Source: a bacterium (lineage in GTDB: Bacteria; Fidelibacterota; UBA8477; JABMPR01). From it: a stretch of DNA of 58,244 bases. Below are positions 20,273 through 39,767 of this stretch, piece by piece. Made by a program: the position numbers and the translations under genes. A model generated the notes under the pieces. The model was not told the origin of the DNA and did not search any database. It was given only the letters and a program-made list of their open reading frames with translations. The DNA is taken from the NCBI GenBank assembly GCA_013202895.1, contig JABMPR010000225.1, positions 1 to 58,244 of the forward strand, given 5' to 3'. How positions within the stretch are numbered: the stretch's first letter is position 1; every line of letters starts with the position of its first letter.

Positions 20273-20304
20273 ACCGAATGAGATATAGACCATTCGGTTT
20301 TTTT
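20273..20304 (+). terminator. Terminator-like hairpin before PorV-like gene
   Basis: ACCGAATG and CATTCGGT form a perfect 8-bp stem around a 10-nt loop, followed by eight T. It lies about 135 nt after the last coding-like sequence and ends only some 6 nt before the GAGGAG ribosome-binding site of the PorV-like gene. Read as a plain terminator it ends the nrdR-mlaF transcript; being so near the next start it could equally attenuate the downstream operon. Confidence 0.8.
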
Positions 20305-20325
20305 GTGAATGAGGAGTTTGATAAA

Positions 20326-21618
20326 ATGAGATTAAATAAAGCTTTGATACTGGGATTGGGGTCTTTACTGCTGTTTTCAACAGCATTTTCCCAGAGTGCG
20401 TTATTTTTATTAATTGCCCCGGGCGCACGTGCTGCCGGGATGGGAGAGGCGCAAGTCGCTGTGGCTGATGATTCATATGCAACCTATTGGAACCCTGCCG
20501 GTCTTGGTTTTCAGGAAGGCTACGAATTATCCGGAATGCATGTAAACTGGTTGCCTGGTCTTGTTGATGATATGTATTACGACTTTCTAGCTGCTCGCGC
20601 ACCCGTTGAAAATCTAGGTGTATTTGGAACACACATTATCTATTTGAATGCCGGTGAACAACAGCATACTGGCCCAAACCAGGAAGATTTAGGAACCTTT
20701 TATACCTACTTCACCTCGGGAGCAATCAGCTATAGTACTTTAATCTCTGAAACCTCCAGTATTGGATTCAACTTCAAAATTCTTTACCAACACTTAACTG
20801 ATTCAAATGTTGGGGTAGGTACGGAAGAAACAAAGGGAACGGCAACCAACTTTGGATTTGATGTTGGCTACCTAAGTAAAAACCATTTTAATGACAAATT
20901 AGATTTTGGTGTTATGGTGGCAAATTTGGGTCCCAAGGTCATTTTTAATGATAAAGAACAAGCTGATCCCATGCCTACGAACTTAAAACTTGGTTTCAAC
21001 CTGCGTGCCTATGAGTCCCGCTACAATCGTCTGAATCTCGTTTATGATGTAAATAAGCTTCTGGTGGGTGAGTATGCTGCAATGGATTGGGATGGTGACG
21101 GCTTGATCGGTGGCTTTGATGATTCGGGCTCCGCAGATCTTAATGGAGATTATAATAGCGATAGTCAAAAAGAAATTGCCCATACTGATTCATGGTGGCA
21201 AGGGATTGTCACTTCCTTTTTTGATGATTGGTATTTAGGTGGCGACCGTGATTTTGACGGCAATAAAATTATAGGTGGTTGGGATTTGATCGAAGGTACA
21301 GATTCTACCTTTACTCAAGCTTCCGCAAGTGGAATCTACAACGAGGATGGTGTAAAGGAGTTGGGAAGCAAAGATGATCGCAAAGTTTCTGCGGAATTTG
21401 AAGCCCTTATACACTCTGTCGGTCTGGAATATTGGTATAATGACATGTTTGCCATTCGAGGTGGTTATTATTACGATTCGGAAGGCAAGATAACAACGCC
21501 TACTGTTGGTGCCGGGATTCGTTACGGCAACTATGGCTTTGATTTTGGGTACACAGTAGCTGAGGAAGCACACCCCCTCAACAACACCATGCGGTTTTCG
21601 CTCATGCTCAAGTTTTGA
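20326..21618 (+). CDS. PorV-family barrel with EF-hand-type loops
   Basis: A 430-residue outer-membrane protein of the PorV/PorQ type: signal peptide to about residue 23, then IAPGARAAGMGEAQVAVADD and YATYWNPAGLGF, the PorV family N-terminus, followed by barrel strands to the C-terminal TMRFSLMLKF. PorV recruits T9SS cargo at the outer membrane, and a T9SS cargo gene follows. Odd: residues about 250-330 form an Asp-rich insertion with two 12-residue calcium-loop patterns, DWDGDGLIGGFD (254-265) and DFDGNKIIGGWD (309-320). The ATG at 20326 has GAGGAG upstream; the track start is 48 nt too early. Confidence 0.87.
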   Translation: MRLNKALILGLGSLLLFSTAFSQSALFLLIAPGARAAGMGEAQVAVADDSYATYWNPAGLGFQEGYELSGMHVNWLPGLVDDMYYDFLAARAPVENLGVFGTHIIYLNAGEQQHTGPNQEDLGTFYTYFTSGAISYSTLISETSSIGFNFKILYQHLTDSNVGVGTEETKGTATNFGFDVGYLSKNHFNDKLDFGVMVANLGPKVIFNDKEQADPMPTNLKLGFNLRAYESRYNRLNLVYDVNKLLVGEYAAMDWDGDGLIGGFDDSGSADLNGDYNSDSQKEIAHTDSWWQGIVTSFFDDWYLGGDRDFDGNKIIGGWDLIEGTDSTFTQASASGIYNEDGVKELGSKDDRKVSAEFEALIHSVGLEYWYNDMFAIRGGYYYDSEGKITTPTVGAGIRYGNYGFDFGYTVAEEAHPLNNTMRFSLMLKF

Positions 21619-21713: not shown

Positions 21714-24536
21714 TTGCTGGTCATGGTATTGGCCATTCCGGGTTCAGCTCAAAATTTAAAGATCGCAGTTATCAGGGTTGCCTTTCAAATAGATGACTCA
21801 CCTGCTACAACAGGGGATGGTAGTTTCGTAATCGAAGATACTGTTGATCTTGATTGTCCAGACTGGGTACTTGATCCACCTCCTCATGACAAAACATATT
21901 TTCTTGACCACCTCCGAGCCGCAGACAATTACTGGCAGCGGGTCAGTAATGGTAACGTCAGTATCAACCTGGCAAGTTCTGAATCCATGATTTTTCCTGC
22001 TGGAGAAACAGAAGCATTTCCACTACCCCATGACATGCTTTACTATCATCCCTATCTCCAGGACTTTGATGAAACAGCCAAATTATTTGAGCTGAGTCGT
22101 GATGCGCTTAACTTGGCTGATTCAGCGGTGAATTTTAATGACTTTTCGACAGTAATTGTGGTCCACGCCGGAATGGGTGGCGATTTTGCCTTTGCTCTGG
22201 ATCCAACACCGGGAAATATCCCTTCAGCCTATCTCACAGCAAGCGATTTTAGCGAATATGGTGAGTTAGTTTATGATGGTATAGTGCTTAAAGATCTGAT
22301 TATTATACCTGAATCACAAAACTTTCTTCAATATAAAGAAACCAGGAGTTTGTTTACCAATACATCAGATCCCTGTTTTTATCAGGTAGGATTGAATGGA
22401 ACCTTAGCCCTGATGCTTGGCTTTCATCTCGGCTTACCGCCTCTCTATAATACTGAATCCGGCATGTCCCTGGTAGGTGGATTTGCGCTTATGGATCAGG
22501 GTTCTAATAACTTTCACGGGATTGCTCCTGCCTATCCGGATCCTTATACAAGGATTAGAGAGGGGTGGATAAGTCCAAATATTATGCGTATTGGCGATAA
22601 TATCAATTTGACTGTGGATGATGATCCCATCCGTATTTCCATTTCTGATAGTGAATATTATCTAATCGAGAATCGCCAACGAAATCTAATTCAGCCTGCT
22701 GGGATGACCCAATGGATAGATGTACCAGGTTTCGACACAGTTTCGGTCGACACCAGTTTAAACGGAGTTGTGTTGCAGGTTGATGAACAACACGCAGGTT
22801 TACCTGGAAACGGTCTCTACATCTGGCATATTGATGAATCTGCCTGGTATTCTGATGAAAACCCGAATGGTGGTGATCTTCAATTGGTGGATTTTGTTGA
22901 AGCTGATGGTGCTCAGGATATGGGGCATACTACTCAATTACTTTTTGCAGAATATCTGGAAACGGGTTGGTGGTTTGATCCCTGGTTTGCTACAAATGAA
23001 GGCTGGTTTCACCTGAACCGAACCCAGGAGGTGGTAGGAGATAGTCTACTCAGTTTTAATTCCTCAACCTTTCCATCTACTCTTTCAAATAGTGGTATTC
23101 CCAGCCACCTCAGTATTGAGAATATATCGAAAAATGGCTCGTCCATGTCATTCTCCATTTCATCTGATAGAGAAATACAGTTGGATTCTGTCTCTACAAT
23201 TATTGGACTCGGTCAAGAGGCTGGAAAAATCTGGTGTTTTAATACTGATTCATCTGAAATATTGGTTGGCCAGCTAGAAAGTGATCCTTTTGTCCTCATT
23301 ACAAGTCCAATCACACCAGATATGATTTATAGTGGAAGCATAAATAACTCAATTGTATTTCAATACCCCTGGCTGGTTACTCAAGTGTCCTCGGGTATTC
23401 GGTTTATGAATATGGAAGATGGCATTATTCAATTCGACAACGATCATCAAACTGTCTCTGACATCACACTGGCCGAGAATGTTGTACGGTATATAGGTTA
23501 CACTGATTCTACTCAGAACTTGATTGAATGGAATATCGTAACTGGCGGCATCCAATCAGAAATACTTCAGGATCATCCGCTAGCTTTTTTTACGACGACG
23601 ATGGGAACCGAAGTGTTTTACGGCAATAGTGGAAACGATGCTCCAAAACCCGTCGCTGTCAGTCATGTTTCTGATCATAGTCAGACAACCTCGGACGGTT
23701 CGGGATATTATTATCAGGAAGCAATGACTGTAATAGGTTGGAACAATAGTGAACATTCAGTCACACAGACCCATTTGCCAGATGGATCAAGCACCAGCAC
23801 TCCAGCTGAAAGGCCTGATTTTATCATCCCTTTGGATACGGATAATGATGGGGCTTACGAAATCACACTTTTTTATGCTGATGAATTCAAAATTATTAAT
23901 CAGGTAAGTACGCTATGGAATGGTAATCCTGTTAAGGTCGACCCCTATTTTGGAACCCCTCTCATCATTCCTTTCTTATTTGAGGATCACGGGATTTTCT
24001 TGCGACATTCGGATCACTATGGCGTCTATTCCATAACTGGTGAGTTATTAGATCAGGGAGTTCTGCCACTAACACAAACCTCTCTAGAAAACGTTGTGGG
24101 CTATGTTTCTGGTCACCTCTGGGTGATTCAGAGTGGAAATAGATTACTTAAGTTTGAGAAAATGATGGTAGAATATACCTCTAATGGATGGTATAGTGGG
24201 GATGGTCGACCCAATGGTGATCGCACCGTGATTCTACATGGAGAGCCTGCTACCGATATCCCTGATATCAAATCCGGATCCGCATACAATTACCCTAATC
24301 CGATCAAGGGGAGTAGTACAACAATCAGAGCTTGGATTGGTGAAGTGGATACCTGGTCAGTGGAGATATTTTCATTATCTGGTGCGCAGATCAAATTCTT
24401 TGATCAAGATGTCGGTCAAAATAATGCTTATAACGAGTTGATCTGGGATGCCGGCGGTGTATCAAATGGTGTATACCTAGCCCAGGTCGTGGCCGGTGAA
24501 CAGTCCGAGATCATCAAGATTGCCATAATACGATGA
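21714..24536 (+). CDS. T9SS-sorted M6-peptidase-like protein, site lost
   Basis: A 940-residue secreted protein. The N-terminal 300 residues follow the M6 (immune inhibitor A) domain layout: LKIAVIRVAFQIDD, a DHLRAADNYWQRVSNGNVSI helix segment, and LGLPPLYN with GFALMDQG. The HEXXH of that family aligns with L233-M-L-G-F237, so the zinc site is absent. The rest is beta-rich, with a DTDNDG segment. The last ~85 residues are a T9SS type A sorting domain (YNYPNPIKGSSTTIRAWIG ... SNGVYLAQVVAGEQ). Start uncertain: TTG 21714 gives a signal lacking basic residues, whereas in-frame upstream codons add VKRFVIVL behind a GGGG motif but offer no ATG, GTG or TTG start. Confidence 0.8.
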   Translation: MLVMVLAIPGSAQNLKIAVIRVAFQIDDSPATTGDGSFVIEDTVDLDCPDWVLDPPPHDKTYFLDHLRAADNYWQRVSNGNVSINLASSESMIFPAGETEAFPLPHDMLYYHPYLQDFDETAKLFELSRDALNLADSAVNFNDFSTVIVVHAGMGGDFAFALDPTPGNIPSAYLTASDFSEYGELVYDGIVLKDLIIIPESQNFLQYKETRSLFTNTSDPCFYQVGLNGTLALMLGFHLGLPPLYNTESGMSLVGGFALMDQGSNNFHGIAPAYPDPYTRIREGWISPNIMRIGDNINLTVDDDPIRISISDSEYYLIENRQRNLIQPAGMTQWIDVPGFDTVSVDTSLNGVVLQVDEQHAGLPGNGLYIWHIDESAWYSDENPNGGDLQLVDFVEADGAQDMGHTTQLLFAEYLETGWWFDPWFATNEGWFHLNRTQEVVGDSLLSFNSSTFPSTLSNSGIPSHLSIENISKNGSSMSFSISSDREIQLDSVSTIIGLGQEAGKIWCFNTDSSEILVGQLESDPFVLITSPITPDMIYSGSINNSIVFQYPWLVTQVSSGIRFMNMEDGIIQFDNDHQTVSDITLAENVVRYIGYTDSTQNLIEWNIVTGGIQSEILQDHPLAFFTTTMGTEVFYGNSGNDAPKPVAVSHVSDHSQTTSDGSGYYYQEAMTVIGWNNSEHSVTQTHLPDGSSTSTPAERPDFIIPLDTDNDGAYEITLFYADEFKIINQVSTLWNGNPVKVDPYFGTPLIIPFLFEDHGIFLRHSDHYGVYSITGELLDQGVLPLTQTSLENVVGYVSGHLWVIQSGNRLLKFEKMMVEYTSNGWYSGDGRPNGDRTVILHGEPATDIPDIKSGSAYNYPNPIKGSSTTIRAWIGEVDTWSVEIFSLSGAQIKFFDQDVGQNNAYNELIWDAGGVSNGVYLAQVVAGEQSEIIKIAIIR

Positions 24537-27500
24537 GATCAATTCCTTGCATTGTATGCATTTTACTGTTCACTGGAGTAGGCTTTAGCCAGGGATTTAA
24601 CCACCCGGAACTCGAGTGGAAGACCATAGAAGGTGAACATTTCATTGTTCATTATCATCAGAACACAAGCTGGACAGCGAATGAAGCGCTGCATGTTGCC
24701 GATGATATATTCCCGGCAATCACCAGTTTATATCAATACCAACCTGAAGAGAAGACCCATATAATTATTCGTGATACAGACGATTATGCCAATGGGGGGG
24801 CCTATTATTACGATAATAAAATCGAAATATGGGCCATGCCTCTTGATTACGCATTACGCGGATCTCACTATTGGCTGCGCGATGTAATCACCCATGAATT
24901 TACTCATATTATTAGTCTGAGAGCTGCTCGTAAGATGCCAGGCAATGTTCCGGCGGCATATTTTCAAGTGATCTCTTATGAACCTGAACGTAGAGAGGAT
25001 GTCCTTTACGGTTATCCCAATGGGATTGCATCCTATCCCTTACCATCGGTCTCGGTCCCCATGTGGTGGGCTGAAGGAATCTCTCAATTTCAAACCGATT
25101 CCATGCGTTGGGACTGGTGGGATAGCATTCGTGATATGATGTTAAGAGATCGGATAAAATATGATAAAGTGCTGACTCTCAATGAGATGGACGGTTTTGG
25201 TAAAGTTGGAATCGGGAACGAAAGTGTTTATGATCATGGTTTCAGTTTTGTTGGCTATCTTGCTCAGGAATTTGGTCAGGATATCATACGTCGTATCACT
25301 ACCCGCATCAGCAAGCTTTCACACTATGGATTTTATACAGCAATGGAAGCAGAGACCGGAGTTGAATCAAAAGAGTTGTGGAGTCGCTGGAAGAATGATC
25401 TTGCTACTAGACAGGCATTATCCTTTGAGAAAAATGAAACAATATCTCCAATCAAGTTTATTCAGCGGGAGGGCGATGCTAATTTTTATCCTCGCTGGAA
25501 TAAAACTGGAAACGCTTTGGGATTCATCTCCAACGCAGGAGAGACCTACTTATCAAGAACAGCTCTCTTTGTTAAAGATTCTACAAAAGATGCTGAACTG
25601 CTCGTACCTGGCGCAGAAGGATTTGATTGGAGTCCAGATAGTATGGTTTTTGTGTATGCGAGGAAAGAATTTTACGATGGCGGAATACCAGATCCCAGAA
25701 CCAAGCGTCACAAAAACCACCATCTCGATCAACTTGGACAGCATCAGGAAGCCGTCAGCTGTGATCGATGTCAATTTCTTATGAGCGGGTCGCGATATTC
25801 CGATCTATTCATTGCACACCGGGACAGTCTCGAAATTGAAGAACAACTAACATTTGGGGAAAGGGTGAAGAATCCCGTTTGGTCGCCATCAGGGGATAAA
25901 ATTGCATTTGTAAATCTGCGGGATGGGACCAACAATATTTGTATTGCCTTTCCTGGAACCCCGGATAGCATTCAACAACTCTCCTTTTTTGAGCCTGGTA
26001 CTCAGGTTTACACACTGCGCTGGTCACCTGACGGCAGAAGTATCATCTTCGATTATACTGGGGGTAGTAATCGTGATATTGCCATCTATGATACAAGGGA
26101 TGAAAAGATATTGCCCCTTCTTAATGAGATTTGGGATGAAAGGGATCCAGTCTTTAAAGACAACTATCAGATCCTATATAGTGATGACCGCACCGGCGTT
26201 TTCAATATTTACAGCTATGATATCATCAGCGGAGATAATAAGCGCCTGACCAACGTTACAGGTGGAGCATTTCAGGCTGAATGGCACGAAGATAAAATGT
26301 ATTACTCACTGTATGACAGTTTGGGTTTTAATATTGCCGTCTTGGACGATTCTGAACTTCTTAATACATTCACATTACCGCTTGATATGTCTCTCGAAAG
26401 AATTATTCCTCCCACCTGGGAACGACATGTCGAAAAATTGGCTGCAGAGAATTACATCCTACAGTATGGCCCAATGTTTTTACTACCCCGATTGCAGATC
26501 GAAATTGATCAATCGAAGGGTGACGTATTGTATAAACCAGGTTTCTATTTTTTTTCAGATGAAATCCTGAGCAATTATTCCATGGTGGGTGGGTTTGGTC
26601 TGGCTCCAAATCTAGATATGGATTTATTTATTTCAACCCAGTATCGAGGCTTTCTACCAACCCTCACTTTCGAGTTTTATCAAATGGTGAGACACACACA
26701 AGAAGAATTATGGTATTATGACCATGTCTGGCCGGCACAAAGTGAACTGACCTTCAGCCTGACCCAAGGCGTTTTATCTGCAGATATTCTAATACCTCCC
26801 ACCCATAGATTAATCCTGGACATTTCCGCTTCCAATTATAGGACTTCCATTGGACTGCACACGGTTGGACAAGGGCTACCAGCAGGCGGCATCAGTTATG
26901 ATTACTTTAAAGGCTGGGATTGGGGCTTGAAATGGTCCATGTCCCATATCAACCTCCGTCAGGAACGGAGTATCAATCCTTCAGGTTATAAAGCCAGTTT
27001 TTCCGTACGGGATAACCACCATAAATTCCTGGATGAGTATGGATATGATGAATCTACGGAACGCTGGGGAAATATCTTCAGTTCCTACCATTATGCAAAA
27101 TTAAACGCTTCGGGTTTTTATGGCTACCTCTTACCAGTTAAGGGCCAGTTTGTAATTTCAAATGAGACAGAAATTAATCTCATCGATAACAATAGAATTG
27201 ATGATTTCTTTTATGAATTTGCCGGGGGATTACCAGGCTTAAGGGGTTATCCATTTTATAGTATGAAAGGCAGTCGGCGATTTGTTTCTACATCTACGCT
27301 AAGATTTCCAATATTTCGGGATAATTATAGCCGCCTCGCGCATATGATGCTACGGGATTTATATCTTGGACTGCACGGTCAGGTCGGTGCTGCCTGGTCA
27401 GCTGACCCGGAAAACGTTGAGATTGGAGAGCTGAAATCATGGATGAAGCACGAACGAGATCAGATTGATCTGGTACGGGATGTTGGAGTAGATCTGCGAT

Positions 27501-27655
27501 TTGCACTTAATTCCTATTATGCTTTTCCAACTGCTTTTGAATTGGGGGCTTATTATGGCCTGGATGAGGTCTCGGTAACCACCAATAATGATGAGTTGAT
27601 CAGATATGGCGGGGAATGGCGCTATTACTGGAAGGTGTTGTTTGGTTTTGAATAG
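24533..27655 (+). CDS. Metallopeptidase-propeller-barrel fusion protein
   Basis: A 1040-residue exported protein with three parts. Residues 25-290 form a gluzincin-like peptidase domain with the zinc motif HEFTH at 121-125 and a likely third ligand E181 in WWAEGISQF. Residues about 300-610 are TolB/PD40-type propeller repeats (NFYPRWNKTGNALGFIS, NPVWSPSGDKIAFVN, TLRWSPDGRSIIFDY). The C-terminal 400 residues look like an outer-membrane barrel, with LPGLRGYPFYSMKGSRRF near 900 resembling the BamA/surface-antigen LRGY strand. A CDRC pair lies near residue 410. It overlaps the preceding gene by four bases. Probably an outer-membrane peptidase facing outward or inward; the substrate is unknown. 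Confidence 0.78.
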   Translation: MRSIPCIVCILLFTGVGFSQGFNHPELEWKTIEGEHFIVHYHQNTSWTANEALHVADDIFPAITSLYQYQPEEKTHIIIRDTDDYANGGAYYYDNKIEIWAMPLDYALRGSHYWLRDVITHEFTHIISLRAARKMPGNVPAAYFQVISYEPERREDVLYGYPNGIASYPLPSVSVPMWWAEGISQFQTDSMRWDWWDSIRDMMLRDRIKYDKVLTLNEMDGFGKVGIGNESVYDHGFSFVGYLAQEFGQDIIRRITTRISKLSHYGFYTAMEAETGVESKELWSRWKNDLATRQALSFEKNETISPIKFIQREGDANFYPRWNKTGNALGFISNAGETYLSRTALFVKDSTKDAELLVPGAEGFDWSPDSMVFVYARKEFYDGGIPDPRTKRHKNHHLDQLGQHQEAVSCDRCQFLMSGSRYSDLFIAHRDSLEIEEQLTFGERVKNPVWSPSGDKIAFVNLRDGTNNICIAFPGTPDSIQQLSFFEPGTQVYTLRWSPDGRSIIFDYTGGSNRDIAIYDTRDEKILPLLNEIWDERDPVFKDNYQILYSDDRTGVFNIYSYDIISGDNKRLTNVTGGAFQAEWHEDKMYYSLYDSLGFNIAVLDDSELLNTFTLPLDMSLERIIPPTWERHVEKLAAENYILQYGPMFLLPRLQIEIDQSKGDVLYKPGFYFFSDEILSNYSMVGGFGLAPNLDMDLFISTQYRGFLPTLTFEFYQMVRHTQEELWYYDHVWPAQSELTFSLTQGVLSADILIPPTHRLILDISASNYRTSIGLHTVGQGLPAGGISYDYFKGWDWGLKWSMSHINLRQERSINPSGYKASFSVRDNHHKFLDEYGYDESTERWGNIFSSYHYAKLNASGFYGYLLPVKGQFVISNETEINLIDNNRIDDFFYEFAGGLPGLRGYPFYSMKGSRRFVSTSTLRFPIFRDNYSRLAHMMLRDLYLGLHGQVGAAWSADPENVEIGELKSWMKHERDQIDLVRDVGVDLRFALNSYYAFPTAFELGAYYGLDEVSVTTNNDELIRYGGEWRYYWKVLFGFE

Positions 27656-28403
27656 ATTAAAAATTATAACCGTAATTTTATTTGTTGGTTTAGTCATTGG
27701 TTCAACGACCTTTGGTCGGGAACTTCACAATGCACCGACTAAACTGCCGGTCAATACCAAGATGATGACAAATTTTCTAAAATCTCTAATCATCCCCGGA
27801 TGGGGACAATGGTCCAATGGCAACAAAGTAAGAGCGGTAGCCTACCTCGCTGCAGAAGTTGCCAGTATTTATGGTTATCAGGAAAACTATTCCACAGGAA
27901 AAGATGGTGAAAGGGATTTCAAAAACTTTGCCAATGAACACTGGTATTACGGTCGCTGGTCACCAAATAATGATGGTGAAACAGCATGTGGCAATAATTT
28001 ACGTACCCACCAAATGCCTACACTTACGGATATTTATGGCAACGATATATATGATGATCTGGGCTTTCTAATTCCATTAAAGGATCACCATTTCTATGAG
28101 AATATTAGTAAATACCCTGAGTTCGTGTGTGGCTGGGATGATATTGCAGATCAATGGAGTGAAGACGAAAAAATTTATACACCTAACAAGTTGACATATA
28201 TTAAGATGAGAACCCTCTCCAATGACCATTACCGCAATGCCCAGGTAGCCGGGACACTTATCATGATAAATCATTTGGTCAGTGCCTTTGATGCTGCGTT
28301 GGGGACAGATATAACATCATTTGAGACAACTAATTTCACTGGAAAATTCTATATTAATCCGATGAATGCTGTAAACGGCATCAGACTGGAGGTAAAATTT
28401 TGA
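27642..28403 (+). CDS. Exported or membrane protein, DUF5683-like
   Basis: About 253 residues, unknown role. An N-terminal hydrophobic segment (LKIITVILFVGLVIGSTTFG) is followed near residue 45 by FLKSLIIPGWGQWSNGNKVRAVAYLAAEVASI, the short helix pair with the PGWGQ motif typical of DUF5683/TM2-like proteins. A polar region rich in Asp, Tyr and Asn follows, then IMINHLVSAFDAAL and a terminal NGIRLEVKF. No ATG is available: TTG 27642 has GGAAGG six bases upstream and is favoured over the TTG at 27648. It overlaps both neighbours, within the outer-membrane operon leading to bamD. Confidence 0.6.
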   Translation: MVLNRLKIITVILFVGLVIGSTTFGRELHNAPTKLPVNTKMMTNFLKSLIIPGWGQWSNGNKVRAVAYLAAEVASIYGYQENYSTGKDGERDFKNFANEHWYYGRWSPNNDGETACGNNLRTHQMPTLTDIYGNDIYDDLGFLIPLKDHHFYENISKYPEFVCGWDDIADQWSEDEKIYTPNKLTYIKMRTLSNDHYRNAQVAGTLIMINHLVSAFDAALGTDITSFETTNFTGKFYINPMNAVNGIRLEVKF

Positions 28404-29197
28404 TGGCTCGCTTTACCAGGACAATAAGATTTATTATTTTAGGTCTTTTAATGGGGATCACAATCCAATTTTGTGCCTCACAAAAGGGGGATCTCGAATC
28501 TACAGATATCGCTGAAACTTTTCAGCGGGGGATGGATTACTATGAAAAAAACAATTTCATCAAAGCCGAAGAACTCTTCACCTTTATTATCTATAATGAT
28601 CCAGGTGGTGCCTATGCTGATGATGCTCAATATTATCTCGCTGAAACCTATTTTGCCAGGGATGATCTGTTAGTCGCCATTAGTGAATATGATCGGCTCA
28701 TTAGACGCATGAAAAATTCTGAACTTGTAGAAGACGCTTTCTGGCGCAAGACCGAAGCCTATTGTGAATTATCTCCAGATTATCGACTTGAGAAGGATAT
28801 GACCGACAAGGCACTGCGTTATTTATATGATTTTGTTGAAATCTATCCTGAAAGCAAGTTTAGACCGGATGCCGAATCCCGCATTCTCGAGATGAAGGAA
28901 AAACTGGCCACCAAGTTGATTGAGACAGCCAAATTATATGATACCCTGCGTGAACATGAGTCTGCTTTGTTTTATTATGATAGCGTGATCGAAGATTATT
29001 CTGAAACTAGGCAATATGCTTCCGCCAGGTTGGGAAAAGCTGGTGATATGGCCATGCTTGAGCGTTGGAAAGAAGCCCGTGAACTACTGAATTCTATCGC
29101 TTTAGATGGACGTGATGATTTAAGTGCAAAAGAACTTATCAAATTGAAAACTCTGGCTGCAAAAATACTTGAAGAGACTGACTCACCAGGGAATTGA
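28400..29197 (+). CDS. bamD: BamD-like outer-membrane assembly lipoprotein
   Basis: BamD is the TPR lipoprotein that helps BamA insert barrel proteins into the outer membrane. The 265-residue protein fits the family: TFQRGMDYYEKNNFIKAEELF, GGAYADDAQYYLAETYFARDD, FVEIYPESKFRPDAESRI and a C-terminal YYDSVIEDYSETRQYASARLG. The expected lipid Cys is in QFCASQ; Phe at the -1 position is unusual for a lipobox, which normally has Gly, Ala or Ser. The ATG overlaps the preceding stop. The next gene, nadD, is 10 nt away. BamA is not in the window, though the 24533 gene has a BamA-like barrel end. Confidence 0.85.
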   Translation: MMARFTRTIRFIILGLLMGITIQFCASQKGDLESTDIAETFQRGMDYYEKNNFIKAEELFTFIIYNDPGGAYADDAQYYLAETYFARDDLLVAISEYDRLIRRMKNSELVEDAFWRKTEAYCELSPDYRLEKDMTDKALRYLYDFVEIYPESKFRPDAESRILEMKEKLATKLIETAKLYDTLREHESALFYYDSVIEDYSETRQYASARLGKAGDMAMLERWKEARELLNSIALDGRDDLSAKELIKLKTLAAKILEETDSPGN

Positions 29198-36101: not shown

Positions 36102-36584
36102 TTGCTAAATTTTACCCGCCAGGAACGTGTTGTCATATATTTTTTAGTTATTACGCTTGGCGTCGGAGCTATTTTAAAAATGGTGCGATACCGGCGTTTA
36201 GAAAAACAATTAGAACCTACACGTTTTTATGCTGAAGAGCAACGCTTCAATGAGATCTCAAAACAGATCAATTCGGGGTCGATTGTGCTCATTGATAGTA
36301 CAGATATCGGAGCTACCTTAACGCAGGGGACAGACAACGTTGTTGCGGATGTTTTGCTGCCTGGTTCTACGGCGATCAATATAAATATCGCAGATTTGGA
36401 TGAACTTTGCACACTTCCTGGCATAGGGCCTGCAATAGCTAAAAGGATCAGAGCATATATTGACGAAAATGGTCCTTTTAAAAACAAGGCAGATATTCTT
36501 CAGGTCAAGGGGATTGGAGAGATATTATATTCCCGTATTGAGGGGCTTATTACAATAGATTTATCGAGGAGGACGCGTGATTAA
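36102..36584 (+). CDS. Membrane-anchored helix-hairpin-helix protein
   Basis: About 160 residues. An N-terminal membrane helix (VVIYFLVITLGVGAILKMV) is followed by a polar linker, and the last 65 residues are a ComEA-type double helix-hairpin-helix domain: ININIADLDELCTLPGIGPAIAKRI and KNKADILQVKGIGEILYSRI. Such domains bind double-stranded DNA; ComEA is the DNA receptor of natural transformation. Here it heads a cluster with a PilM-like gene rather than comEC. TTG 36102, just after the dnaJ stop, has GAG upstream; ATG 36033 inside dnaJ is an alternative. It overlaps the next gene by 8 nt. Confidence 0.82.
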   Translation: MLNFTRQERVVIYFLVITLGVGAILKMVRYRRLEKQLEPTRFYAEEQRFNEISKQINSGSIVLIDSTDIGATLTQGTDNVVADVLLPGSTAININIADLDELCTLPGIGPAIAKRIRAYIDENGPFKNKADILQVKGIGEILYSRIEGLITIDLSRRTRD

Positions 36585-38808
36585 AGACGTTTTTGACAGT
36601 CATCGGAATAACACGATTATTATTCTGGTTCTGGTTGCACTATTTATAAGTGTAATTTATTTCCCGAAATCGATATGGGAGTATGAAGCTGAACTTAAGG
36701 ATGAGTCACACTTTCGTATGCAGACGATCAATCTTGCAGAGAAACTTCACTATCAATTAGCAAAATCATATACCACTGATACAGAAGCTTTGCTGGCTGT
36801 GGTTAATGGAGTCAGAGATAGTATTCTACTTGCAGAAAATGATACAAGCTACGACTATTACGGTAATCAACGCGTTGCCCTGCCTGGTAAAACAATACCT
36901 GTAAACTACTCAGATGATTATATTGACTATTATAATGAACTTCATCTCCAGCTTTTCAAACTTCTGGAACCAAACCATTTCATGGATGCCAACTCGGTTG
37001 ACCACATTCTCGATACCATTAAAACATTATTCGACGCTGGTAACTACATTGGCGAGCAGACTTTAGAGCTTGATAGTGTTTCCCTAAGTTTCAATGTTTC
37101 GGATAAATATCACATTCTGTACCAAAATATTAATACATCCATGTTCAATGCGCTAACAAATAGCTACACTAAATATCCAAATTTCTCAAATCCCCTAGTA
37201 AATGCGGTTATGGACAGCATTGGCCTTAATCCAGAACTGAGCGGAAGAGTTGATTTTACGGGCGTCTATGATAGCCCAGTTCGTGTTGATTTTATTATCC
37301 CCTTCACATTTGAAGAGAATTTGGAAAAAACAAGGTTGGCATTGAAAAAACACTTTGTCATCGACTCGTATGATTCGGCCACCTACGGTGATACACTTTA
37401 TGAAATGGCTCTATCAGAATTTCTGGTCCAGAATGATACACTTGAGTTCATGCCTGAATCTCTAACTTTAATGTATACGGATACCAGTTCAGAAAAGATC
37501 GCTATTCCTGTTGGAGTCAAATTCGAAGATATGGAAGCAGCGCTCACAAAAAGACGCAATACACTTTACACAATGCTCACAGGGTATAGCGAGCCAAGTG
37601 CCCATATTGCGAAAGAGATTATTAAAGTAGCTCTTGATTCTCTAGCGTCAGCAGGTGTGGGTATTGATTCCATTCATTATGATATTGATTTAACGGATGC
37701 AGTATTTTCCATTAATATGCATAATAATATTCTAGATTATTTTAATAAAGTGAGTCTGGATCAGGCTTATTATAAAACCGCGGTGAATCTGAGCAATCTC
37801 GATTGGAATAAAGCTGCAGTCGAGGTAGTAGAATTTGTAGCAGCAACCCTAAAGAAAAAATCTGATTTTAAAAATTGGCAAATTGTTGAAGCTGAAACAG
37901 ATACATTCAATATTAATATATTTGAAGATTTTATGAGAGTTTATGATGATATGAATCTGAAACTCTACGAAAAACTTACCGGTAAATTTACGAATATTCA
38001 TAATTATGCATTTGAGGTTCTCAGCCTTGCTGGACATTTTGCTGGAATAGATAGTCTGGCCTGGAGCGGAGAGCAAGAGCTTGTGATGGCACCTGATACA
38101 ATCCCGGTAAATGTTTTTATAACGTTCATGGCTGAGTATGACACTACTTTTACAATTATGAGAGATACTGTTGCCCAGCTTAATGATAGTACTTTTAGTG
38201 GCGTATGGTATCGACATAAACTTGGTGTCACCCAAGAATTTTCTCTCGATTCTCTTGAATTTTTGAGTCTGGGGGATAATTCTAAATATATCTATGATTT
38301 TGGAGGCACTGATAGCGTGAGGTCCATCAATATCATTGAAAAAAGCGACACAGCTCGCGTGGAAAAAGTCTACTTCGGCATGGATACTTATATTTTGACC
38401 TTCAGTGACGATAGCCTAATGGAAAATCTATATCGGATAACTGATGAATTTTCCATATATGATTCAATTCAAATCGATAGCCTCAATGTTGTTTCCGATG
38501 AATTTGTTGTTGATGACAAAGAAAAGGACCTTTTTATGTCGAAGGACTCATTTGGCGGATGGCAAGATACATTGATATCCAAAAAATATGAAAAGATTCA
38601 ACTATTTTCTCATTACCTGTTTAATCCCGAACATACACGCTGCTCTGTCACCGATATTCCTTTTCGAGTTACGGTTAGAAATAACGTGAATCTCTCTATT
38701 GAATCGCCAATAACATCGCCTATCAAGACAAATCGTTATCTCTTCTTCTCTCAGATTGATTCCAGTCATGGTAGTATCCATGATGGAGAAGAGAGCTGGG
38801 CAGAATAG
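36577..38808 (+). CDS. Bitopic protein with internal repeats, unknown
   Basis: I do not recognise this 743-residue protein. It has a short cytoplasmic N-terminus, one membrane helix (NTIIILVLVALFISVIYF) and a large periplasmic part with no cysteine until near the end. Four or five copies of a ~40-residue helical unit are visible, each of the form L..LL......A..I....D..: LHYQLAKSYTTDTEALLAVV near 55, LHLQLFKLLEPNHFMDANS near 130, LYQNINTSMFNALTNSYTK near 195, TLYTMLTGYSEPSAHIAKE near 335 and NLKLYEKLTGKFTNIHNYA near 460. GTG 36577 with AGGAGG upstream. It is coupled to the ComEA-like gene and 17 nt from the PilM-like gene, so probably part of one envelope complex. Confidence 0.75.
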   Translation: MIKDVFDSHRNNTIIILVLVALFISVIYFPKSIWEYEAELKDESHFRMQTINLAEKLHYQLAKSYTTDTEALLAVVNGVRDSILLAENDTSYDYYGNQRVALPGKTIPVNYSDDYIDYYNELHLQLFKLLEPNHFMDANSVDHILDTIKTLFDAGNYIGEQTLELDSVSLSFNVSDKYHILYQNINTSMFNALTNSYTKYPNFSNPLVNAVMDSIGLNPELSGRVDFTGVYDSPVRVDFIIPFTFEENLEKTRLALKKHFVIDSYDSATYGDTLYEMALSEFLVQNDTLEFMPESLTLMYTDTSSEKIAIPVGVKFEDMEAALTKRRNTLYTMLTGYSEPSAHIAKEIIKVALDSLASAGVGIDSIHYDIDLTDAVFSINMHNNILDYFNKVSLDQAYYKTAVNLSNLDWNKAAVEVVEFVAATLKKKSDFKNWQIVEAETDTFNINIFEDFMRVYDDMNLKLYEKLTGKFTNIHNYAFEVLSLAGHFAGIDSLAWSGEQELVMAPDTIPVNVFITFMAEYDTTFTIMRDTVAQLNDSTFSGVWYRHKLGVTQEFSLDSLEFLSLGDNSKYIYDFGGTDSVRSINIIEKSDTARVEKVYFGMDTYILTFSDDSLMENLYRITDEFSIYDSIQIDSLNVVSDEFVVDDKEKDLFMSKDSFGGWQDTLISKKYEKIQLFSHYLFNPEHTRCSVTDIPFRVTVRNNVNLSIESPITSPIKTNRYLFFSQIDSSHGSIHDGEESWAE

Positions 38809-38825: not shown

Positions 38826-39767
38826 ATGCTGGCTATCCACATATCCCGCGATACACTGAAATTCGCTCAATTGGTGAATTTCAAAGGAACTCCTTTTATC
38901 GAAAGTCTGGGGAAGCTCTCCATCAAGGAAGGACTTCAAGTCCCCGATACCACGAATTCAGAAGTAATACTTGGTTTGGCTGAGCAAATCACGAACATCC
39001 GAAATTCTGCTGAATTCCCTGATAATGCAACTCATATTGTGATAGATAGTGATTGGTTTCCACTTTCGATTCACCAGGTTGACAGTGTCCTGGACCATTC
39101 TGAAAAAGAAAAATACCTGACCTGGAGAATGTCAGAAATGCTTGAAACAGCATATGATCAATATTCTTTGGTTCACCAGGTATTAAGACAAGTTGATGCT
39201 ACAAGCGATGAATACCTTTCGTTGGGAATTCCTCATTCGTTTTCAACATGGATCGATAAAATTGTTTCTCCCTCAGAACTGGGAACCAAAAACGTTATTT
39301 TGGATATCCAGGCTCTTGGCGATATGCTGGCGGTAAGCGGTCAATTGGATAGTGATGGTGGAATCCAGGTGGTAATGGAAAATCAGGAAAATGCTATTCG
39401 ATGTCATATTTTCCAAAACCTGGAATTCTGCGCACTTTTCCATGCAGCACTCAACTGGGACTACACTATCACAGTAGATAATGTACGTGGGAACTCTAAA
39501 ATGGTGGATCAGGTTGCTGAAGCCCTGGGCAGAGCCCTTAAAGGCAAACAGAATCCTGATAACGCCATCACCAATCTATTCTATTTCAATTCTAGCGGTG
39601 ACCCGGCCGTACTGCATAATCTAGCAAAATATGGGACGAGCTGTCAAAAACTGAATCTGGCTGATCATTTTAATTTTCGTGATCCGGATTTTGAGAATAT
39701 AGATGAATATGCCGTTGTTCTCGGCGCACTAAGTGTTGAGATTCAGGAGCGTTTCAGTGAAGATTGA
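38826..39767 (+). CDS. Degenerate PilM-like protein
   Basis: A 313-residue soluble protein that reads like PilM/GspL-type actin folds: an N-terminal strand pair LAIHISRDTLKFAQLVNF in place of the usual GIDIGxxSIKLV, a KYLTWRMSEMLETAYDQYSL segment (family EKYxxWR), and NVILDIQALGDMLAVSGQL like the VDVExxAL part. Nucleotide-binding glycines and Asp of the phosphate loops are not conserved (HISRD; VVMENQENAIR where DxGxxxT is expected), so ATP binding is doubtful. The ATG has GAGGTA before it. It overlaps the next gene by 11 nt. PilM family identity is inferred from pattern and context, not certain. Confidence 0.6.
   Translation: MLAIHISRDTLKFAQLVNFKGTPFIESLGKLSIKEGLQVPDTTNSEVILGLAEQITNIRNSAEFPDNATHIVIDSDWFPLSIHQVDSVLDHSEKEKYLTWRMSEMLETAYDQYSLVHQVLRQVDATSDEYLSLGIPHSFSTWIDKIVSPSELGTKNVILDIQALGDMLAVSGQLDSDGGIQVVMENQENAIRCHIFQNLEFCALFHAALNWDYTITVDNVRGNSKMVDQVAEALGRALKGKQNPDNAITNLFYFNSSGDPAVLHNLAKYGTSCQKLNLADHFNFRDPDFENIDEYAVVLGALSVEIQERFSED

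Follow-up and report, generated by a model that had tools for sequence, protein, structure and literature searches.

A predicted zinc protease on an Omp85-type outer-membrane barrel and its pairing with a pseudo-protease bearing a type IX secretion tail in Neomarinimicrobiota and related bacteria

The window analysed here, a contig of 58,244 nucleotides (JABMPR010000225.1) from a Neomarinimicrobiota genome, carries a reading frame at 24533-27655 that opens with an ATG at 24533 and continues without interruption to the stop at 27655. Its first four bases (24533-24536) overlap the end of the preceding gene, here called M6i. The features of this region, all on the forward strand, are the following:

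20278-21618, forward strand: PorV/PorQ-family outer-membrane protein (NF033709, 257 bits, above the cut-off), with its upstream position kept in several phyla
21714-24536, forward strand: M6i, an M6-like pseudo-protease with a type IX secretion (T9SS) sorting tail (NF052323, TIGR04183, no HExGH)
24533-27655, forward strand: peptidase-propeller-barrel gene, 1040 residues, open frame, with full-length relatives in several phyla
24533-24592, forward strand: signal-peptide-like N-terminus (residues 1-20), with the hydrophobic stretch MRSIPCIVCILLFTGVGFSQ, modelled with low confidence
24596-25432, forward strand: predicted gluzincin-type metallopeptidase domain (residues 22-300), from its fold, Peptidase_MA_2 in relatives and conservation
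24893-24907, forward strand: HEFTH zinc motif (residues 121-125), with H121, E122, F123 and H125 invariant in 42 of 42 sequences
25064-25078, forward strand: WWAEG (residues 178-182), with W178, A180, E181 and G182 invariant and Glu181 as the expected third zinc ligand
25457-26347, forward strand: TolB-type beta-propeller (residues 309-605), from TIGR02800 and PD40 matches
26348-26476, forward strand: linker leading from the propeller into the barrel (residues 606-648), lacking a POTRA domain in the secondary structure of the model
26477-27652, forward strand: predicted 16-strand Omp85-type outer-membrane barrel (residues 649-1040), from model strands, geometry, a profile match and PF01103 in relatives
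27185-27274, forward strand: loop L6 of the barrel (residues 885-914), between strands 11 and 12, with GLRGY at residues 902-906 (LRGY at 27239-27250)
27606-28403, forward strand: DUF5683-like protein (PF18935, E 0.001), whose true start is probably further downstream
28400-29197, forward strand: BamD-like lipoprotein, a neighbour in Neomarinimicrobiota (TIGR03302, 102.5 bits, above the cut-off; synteny)

An AlphaFold2 model of the whole protein, built from 41 aligned sequences (mean pLDDT 82.8, pTM 0.83), divides the chain into an alpha/beta domain (residues 29-295), the propeller strands (309-605) and exactly 16 strands between residues 649 and 1036. When the 1040 residues are compared with Pfam and NCBIfam, the TolB-like propeller is recovered together with a sub-threshold match to Peptidase_MA_2 (19.5 bits, for a cut-off of 32.4), the barrel region stays blank, and neither TIGR04183 nor PF18962, the T9SS sorting domains, is matched. 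Taken together, sequence and model describe a single outer-membrane protein in which a zinc protease, apparently active, is joined to a propeller and to a barrel that spans the membrane.

The first-pass annotation of this DNA had described an intact HEFTH motif followed by a downstream glutamate, and both are borne out by comparison, as H121, E122, H125 and E181 are invariant in all 42 full-length Neomarinimicrobiota homologues. Glu181 lies 56 residues past the second histidine, and the same spacing between HExxH and WxAEG is found in 130 of the 131 sequences having both motifs, in a search whose pattern overlooked the overlapping HELTH of sister paralogues. When the N-terminal domain was modelled separately (pLDDT 85.5) and compared with the PDB using Foldseek, it resembled M30 lugdulysin, M9 collagenases, M1 aminopeptidases and one M61 enzyme, all 17 matches at E <= 0.001 being gluzincins of these families. 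The motif is thus placed in a peptidase fold, and Peptidase_MA_2 is matched by 36 of 41 relatives. With these clan MA gluzincins (M30 lugdulysin, M9 collagenases, M1, M61; Peptidase_MA_2) the domain shares the fold, the HExxH and a downstream glutamate on a helix (residues 156-165 of the domain model); unlike them, it is part of a chain that continues into a propeller and then a barrel, with 56 residues between HExxH and Glu. A thermolysin (M4) type is rejected by the same structural matches; of the architecture originally expected, the barrel at 649-1036 stands, while "thermolysin-like" is inexact for the N-terminal domain. The peptidase is also the best-conserved part of the protein, with a mean pairwise identity of 55% as against 38-39% in the propeller and the barrel, which argues for an active enzyme. 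On these grounds of sequence and model, we consider the domain to be a predicted zinc peptidase that is apparently active.

The central domain agrees with the TolB-type propeller claimed previously, both by sequence (TIGR02800, E 1.5e-17) and by fold, since TolB and S9 propellers are its best structural matches. It is not TolB proper, for which the 63.6 bits obtained against TIGR02800 fall far below the equivalog cut-off of 343.

For the C-terminal region, a barrel of the BamA type with an LRGY strand had been put forward, and the model is in agreement with this, as it has 16 strands, with LRGY in the loop that follows strand 11, and rejects a second propeller at this end of the protein. No Pfam family matches the barrel of the 1040-residue protein, and nothing significant was returned when its profile was searched against the PDB; an Omp85/BamA-like assignment is beyond the reach of this sequence by itself and is made because of the strand count, the loop position, the relatives matching PF01103 (3 of 38, best E 1.3e-7) and a profile match to the barrel of a paralogue, itself recognised as Omp85. 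This paralogue comes from a relative, its Peptidase_MA_2, PD40 and Omp85 domains all exceed their cut-offs, and the barrel profile aligns with its barrel at E 1.1e-6 (hhalign). A paralogue in the genome studied here (L006) likewise exceeds all three cut-offs, and hhalign of the barrel profile against it gave nothing useful. Within L6, a stretch modelled with low confidence (897-910) carries GLRGY, which is the conserved BamA loop position. Residues G898, G902, G905 and Y906 are invariant, and position 904 is K in 26 sequences, R in 9 and Q in 6; the L6 arginine, which the present protein has, is therefore K or Q in most relatives, a replacement suggesting that its mode of action may differ from that of BamA.

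No POTRA domain is present in the model, where the propeller is followed by a 43-residue linker and then by strand 1. The loops after odd-numbered strands total 96 residues, versus 43 for the turns after even-numbered strands, L6 to L8 being the longest. The peptidase and the propeller both precede the barrel, whose even number of strands brings its two ends to one face, with the long loops at the other; from the model and by analogy, we infer that both domains would be located in the periplasm. This bears on the proposal that the protein is a surface protease, in which the barrel would deliver or hold the peptidase and propeller outside the cell for nutrient breakdown or defence. Such an arrangement resembles an earlier proposal for type Vd secretion, type V systems do include barrel-anchored exoproteins, and display would place the peptidase beside the exported M6i. 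We nevertheless regard it as improbable, as the modelled loop geometry would have the peptidase and propeller facing the periplasm, and conservation in most genomes of several phyla, together with an active site that hardly varies, has the look of a housekeeping function. Moreover, PlpD, the Omp85 protein that would serve as its model, has an enzyme domain that was placed experimentally in the periplasm (PMC11116518), so that "surface protease" becomes the weaker half of what the first-pass annotation had suggested.

The gene with a T9SS tail directly upstream and the nearby bamD-like gene noted in that annotation are both confirmed, the bamD-like gene lying downstream. The upstream product, M6i, matches NF052323 (E 2.3e-92; 310.6 bits, under the cut-off of 600), has a C-terminal sorting tail that scores above the TIGR04183 cut-off, and lacks HExGH in 97 of 97 sequences checked; judged by its sequence, it is an M6-like protease with its catalytic residues lost. 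This is also the description of the NF052323 family (T9SS-dependent M6-like inactivated metalloprotease), M6-like proteins with lost catalytic residues and a T9SS tail, although the family model names no partner, whereas M6i is paired here with the neighbouring protease. Neomarinimicrobiota, KSB1, Calditrichota and Ignavibacteria all show the order porV-family gene, M6i, peptidase-propeller-barrel gene and DUF5683 gene, and the four genes form an operon-like block, with DUF5683 adjoining the protease gene in 116 of 136 loci. Further downstream, bamD and then nadD follow in the Neomarinimicrobiota loci, and adjacency to bamD is found almost only there.

A search for homologues with the same architecture yielded full-length relatives in several phyla; in a scan of genome contigs, these were Neomarinimicrobiota, KSB1, Calditrichota and Ignavibacteria, and the architecture is conserved together with the HExxH...WxAEG site in Neomarinimicrobiota, KSB1, Calditrichota and Bacteroidota. 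By tblastn, some match is found in 144 of 149 Neomarinimicrobiota genomes, and 127 pass the cut used for orthologues (E <= 1e-28). Both genes occur in 123 genomes of this phylum, each occurs alone in 4 and neither in 18 (the tally put to a Fisher test), and the eight genomes with a single gene have listed completeness of 57-89%. In the phylum of a KSB1 record, the protease gene is found in 73 of 79 genomes and M6i in 72, with a few mismatches both ways; as nearly all genomes have both genes, this phylum is uninformative on pairing.

The Bacteroidota phylum (including Ignavibacteria) is more telling. The protease gene reaches orthologue level in 95 of 248 genomes, M6i is found in the identical 95, and the other 153 have neither, absences having been called by a first-look filter in which three candidates were scored per genome. 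As the gene is never without M6i among these 248 genomes, the earlier suggestion that the protein could be "self-contained" is doubtful. SprA is present in all 95 genomes with the pair, and 96 of the 191 SprA-positive genomes have neither gene, which leads us to reject the protein as a core T9SS part. In a SprA tree of 60 genomes (a single protein in a fast alignment, and not a species tree), the joint label takes nine changes, at least eight of them on supported branches, that is, at least eight independent gains or losses in the same direction for both genes.

The two genes are at most 5 kb apart in 85 of the 95 genomes, and this adjacency would make joint loss by one deletion easy. It might thus be proposed that they are only co-inherited, as parts of an old common operon lost together, each with a separate function. 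In a clade including G159, G241, G279 and G291, however, the genes lie on different contigs or, in G159, 861 kb apart, and both are still kept in every sampled genome; in G159, a reading frame in the porV position (judged by position only) remains beside M6i. Since, in addition, the gene order is kept across phyla, we find mere co-inheritance hard to credit. Joint absence of linked genes can also reflect a missing contig or an incomplete assembly, and, because missing contigs can mimic joint loss, the argument depends on the clade with separated genes and on the repeated changes in the tree. The evidence for the pairing of the two genes is strong, and the two proteins probably work as a pair.

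Reduced genomes are consistent in this respect: genus g8 of Neomarinimicrobiota, with genomes of about 0.9 Mb, has kept SprA and has neither M6i nor the protease gene. Matches to PorU in this genus are absent or only weak. A role of the protein as a replacement for the PorU sortase is not supported, as most Neomarinimicrobiota genomes also have PorU.

A different function has also to be considered, namely outer-membrane assembly or quality control. The barrel would insert or hold clients (e.g., PorV or T9SS components) and the protease would remove failures, as if a BamA-type insertase were fused to a BepA-type protease, with M6i as a client or reporter and not as a subunit. The barrel is of Omp85 type, the model places the protease in the periplasm, bamD adjoins in Neomarinimicrobiota, and propeller-Omp85 proteins were suggested by Heinz and Lithgow to act in assembly (PMC4104836). 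By contrast, there is no POTRA domain on which clients could dock, the L6 arginine is mostly replaced, bamD adjacency is almost confined to one phylum, and strict pairing with one pseudo-protease appears too specific for a general factor. We therefore judge such a role unlikely, if less so than surface display or simple co-inheritance.

Type IX secretion is the main surface route in many Bacteroidota and their relatives, and we know of no enzymes for several of its outer-membrane steps. On balance, we lean towards the view that the outer-membrane-anchored zinc protease supplies the enzyme activity in a device of two proteins linked to this system. After Sec export, the protein would be inserted as a 16-strand Omp85-type barrel, as the model and motifs suggest, with the gluzincin domain and the propeller hanging under it in the periplasm, where the propeller would probably select or gate substrates. 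M6i, judging by its sorting tail, would be carried by the T9SS to the cell surface; there it may form the outer half of the device, binding the large barrel loops L6 to L8 or a PorV-type protein, and such binding could couple the state of the surface to periplasmic proteolysis. Most likely, the device would mature or clear proteins, either T9SS cargo or those of the outer membrane. Paralogues with identical architecture are present in the same genome, an observation counted against a T9SS-tied device, as the architecture by itself implies no T9SS role. More tentatively, and with the chances rather against it, one might envisage a trans-envelope protease system of FCB-group bacteria, in which the exported pseudo-protease would control the periplasmic zinc protease through the Omp85-type barrel, so that surface events would switch inner proteolysis. 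In any case, a conserved, apparently active outer-membrane protease and a dead protease with a T9SS tail make a concrete and testable pair.

Parts of this architecture are already known. In 2014, Heinz and Lithgow named a WD40-Omp85 subfamily of the propeller-Omp85 type and accepted Omp85 subfamilies devoid of POTRA domains (PMC4104836). The likeness is one of architecture, as the same TolB-like propeller stands N-terminal to an Omp85-type barrel with no POTRA, but their text on this subfamily mentions no peptidase domain, T9SS link or M6i partner (PMC4104836). The Bacteroidota BAM complexes (BamA/D/G/H and others) have in common with the present protein a barrel with an LRGY loop, and they include a propeller subunit and BamD; none of the subunits described in two papers on these complexes is a peptidase-propeller-barrel protein (PMC12611786, PMC12578637). 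A search of the open literature (most subscription papers and bioRxiv being outside it) returned no study of the protein or any account pairing it with M6i, and, for combinations of propeller-Omp85, gluzincin or M6/T9SS, only the 2014 survey was relevant. Consequently, we provisionally consider that, while propeller-Omp85 proteins are known, the peptidase domain and the pairing with M6i are apparently new. PlpD, the patatin-Omp85 protein of type Vd, likewise bears an N-terminal enzyme domain on an Omp85 barrel, but it is a lipase, has a POTRA domain and lacks both a propeller and a T9SS partner; the protein described here lengthens the short list of enzyme-carrying Omp85 proteins.

The gene at 24533-27655 (+), which encodes the peptidase-propeller-barrel protein, has at least two related ORFs elsewhere in its own genome (G000). 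In one of them (stretch L006, contig C98), the peptidase, PD40 and Omp85 domains all score above the Pfam cut-offs, and the peptidase motifs read HELTH and WLAEG, and the other (L005, contig C209), for which no C-terminus is visible within that stretch, carries HEFQH and WWMEG. In the barrel, the Arg of the Omp85 L6 motif is retained in the window protein at residue 904 (window 27242-27244), and this position is occupied by Lys in 26 and by Gln in 6 of 41 relatives.

PF00149 is presumably the calcineurin-like phosphoesterase family. It is the defining domain of the ‘Metallo’ Omp85 subfamily, despite the naming of this subfamily as a metalloprotease (PMC4104836, section 10), and the window protein is distinct from that subfamily.

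With regard to the T9SS, the f7/g8 Neomarinimicrobiota genomes considered here (G006, G028, G036, G064, G087, G098, G102, G115, G121, G125, G133 and G148), which are reduced to about 0.7-1.0 Mb, retain a SprA homologue, and their matches to the sortase PorU are absent or only weak. Apparently, they have a T9SS core that lacks the known sortase. Both M6i, the M6-like upstream partner, and the peptidase-propeller-barrel gene are missing from them.

In three genomes of the phylum Bacteroidota (G398 C6, G274 C8 and G326 C9), the peptidase-propeller-barrel gene lies 4.3-4.6 kb from SprA. In two stretches (L232 and L233), two ORFs separate these genes, and a likeness to LptF/LptG was noted by eye.

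Within the window, two long ORFs (36577-38805 and 38826-39764) yielded no NCBIfam matches at E 1e-5; they lie directly downstream of hrcA, grpE and dnaJ.
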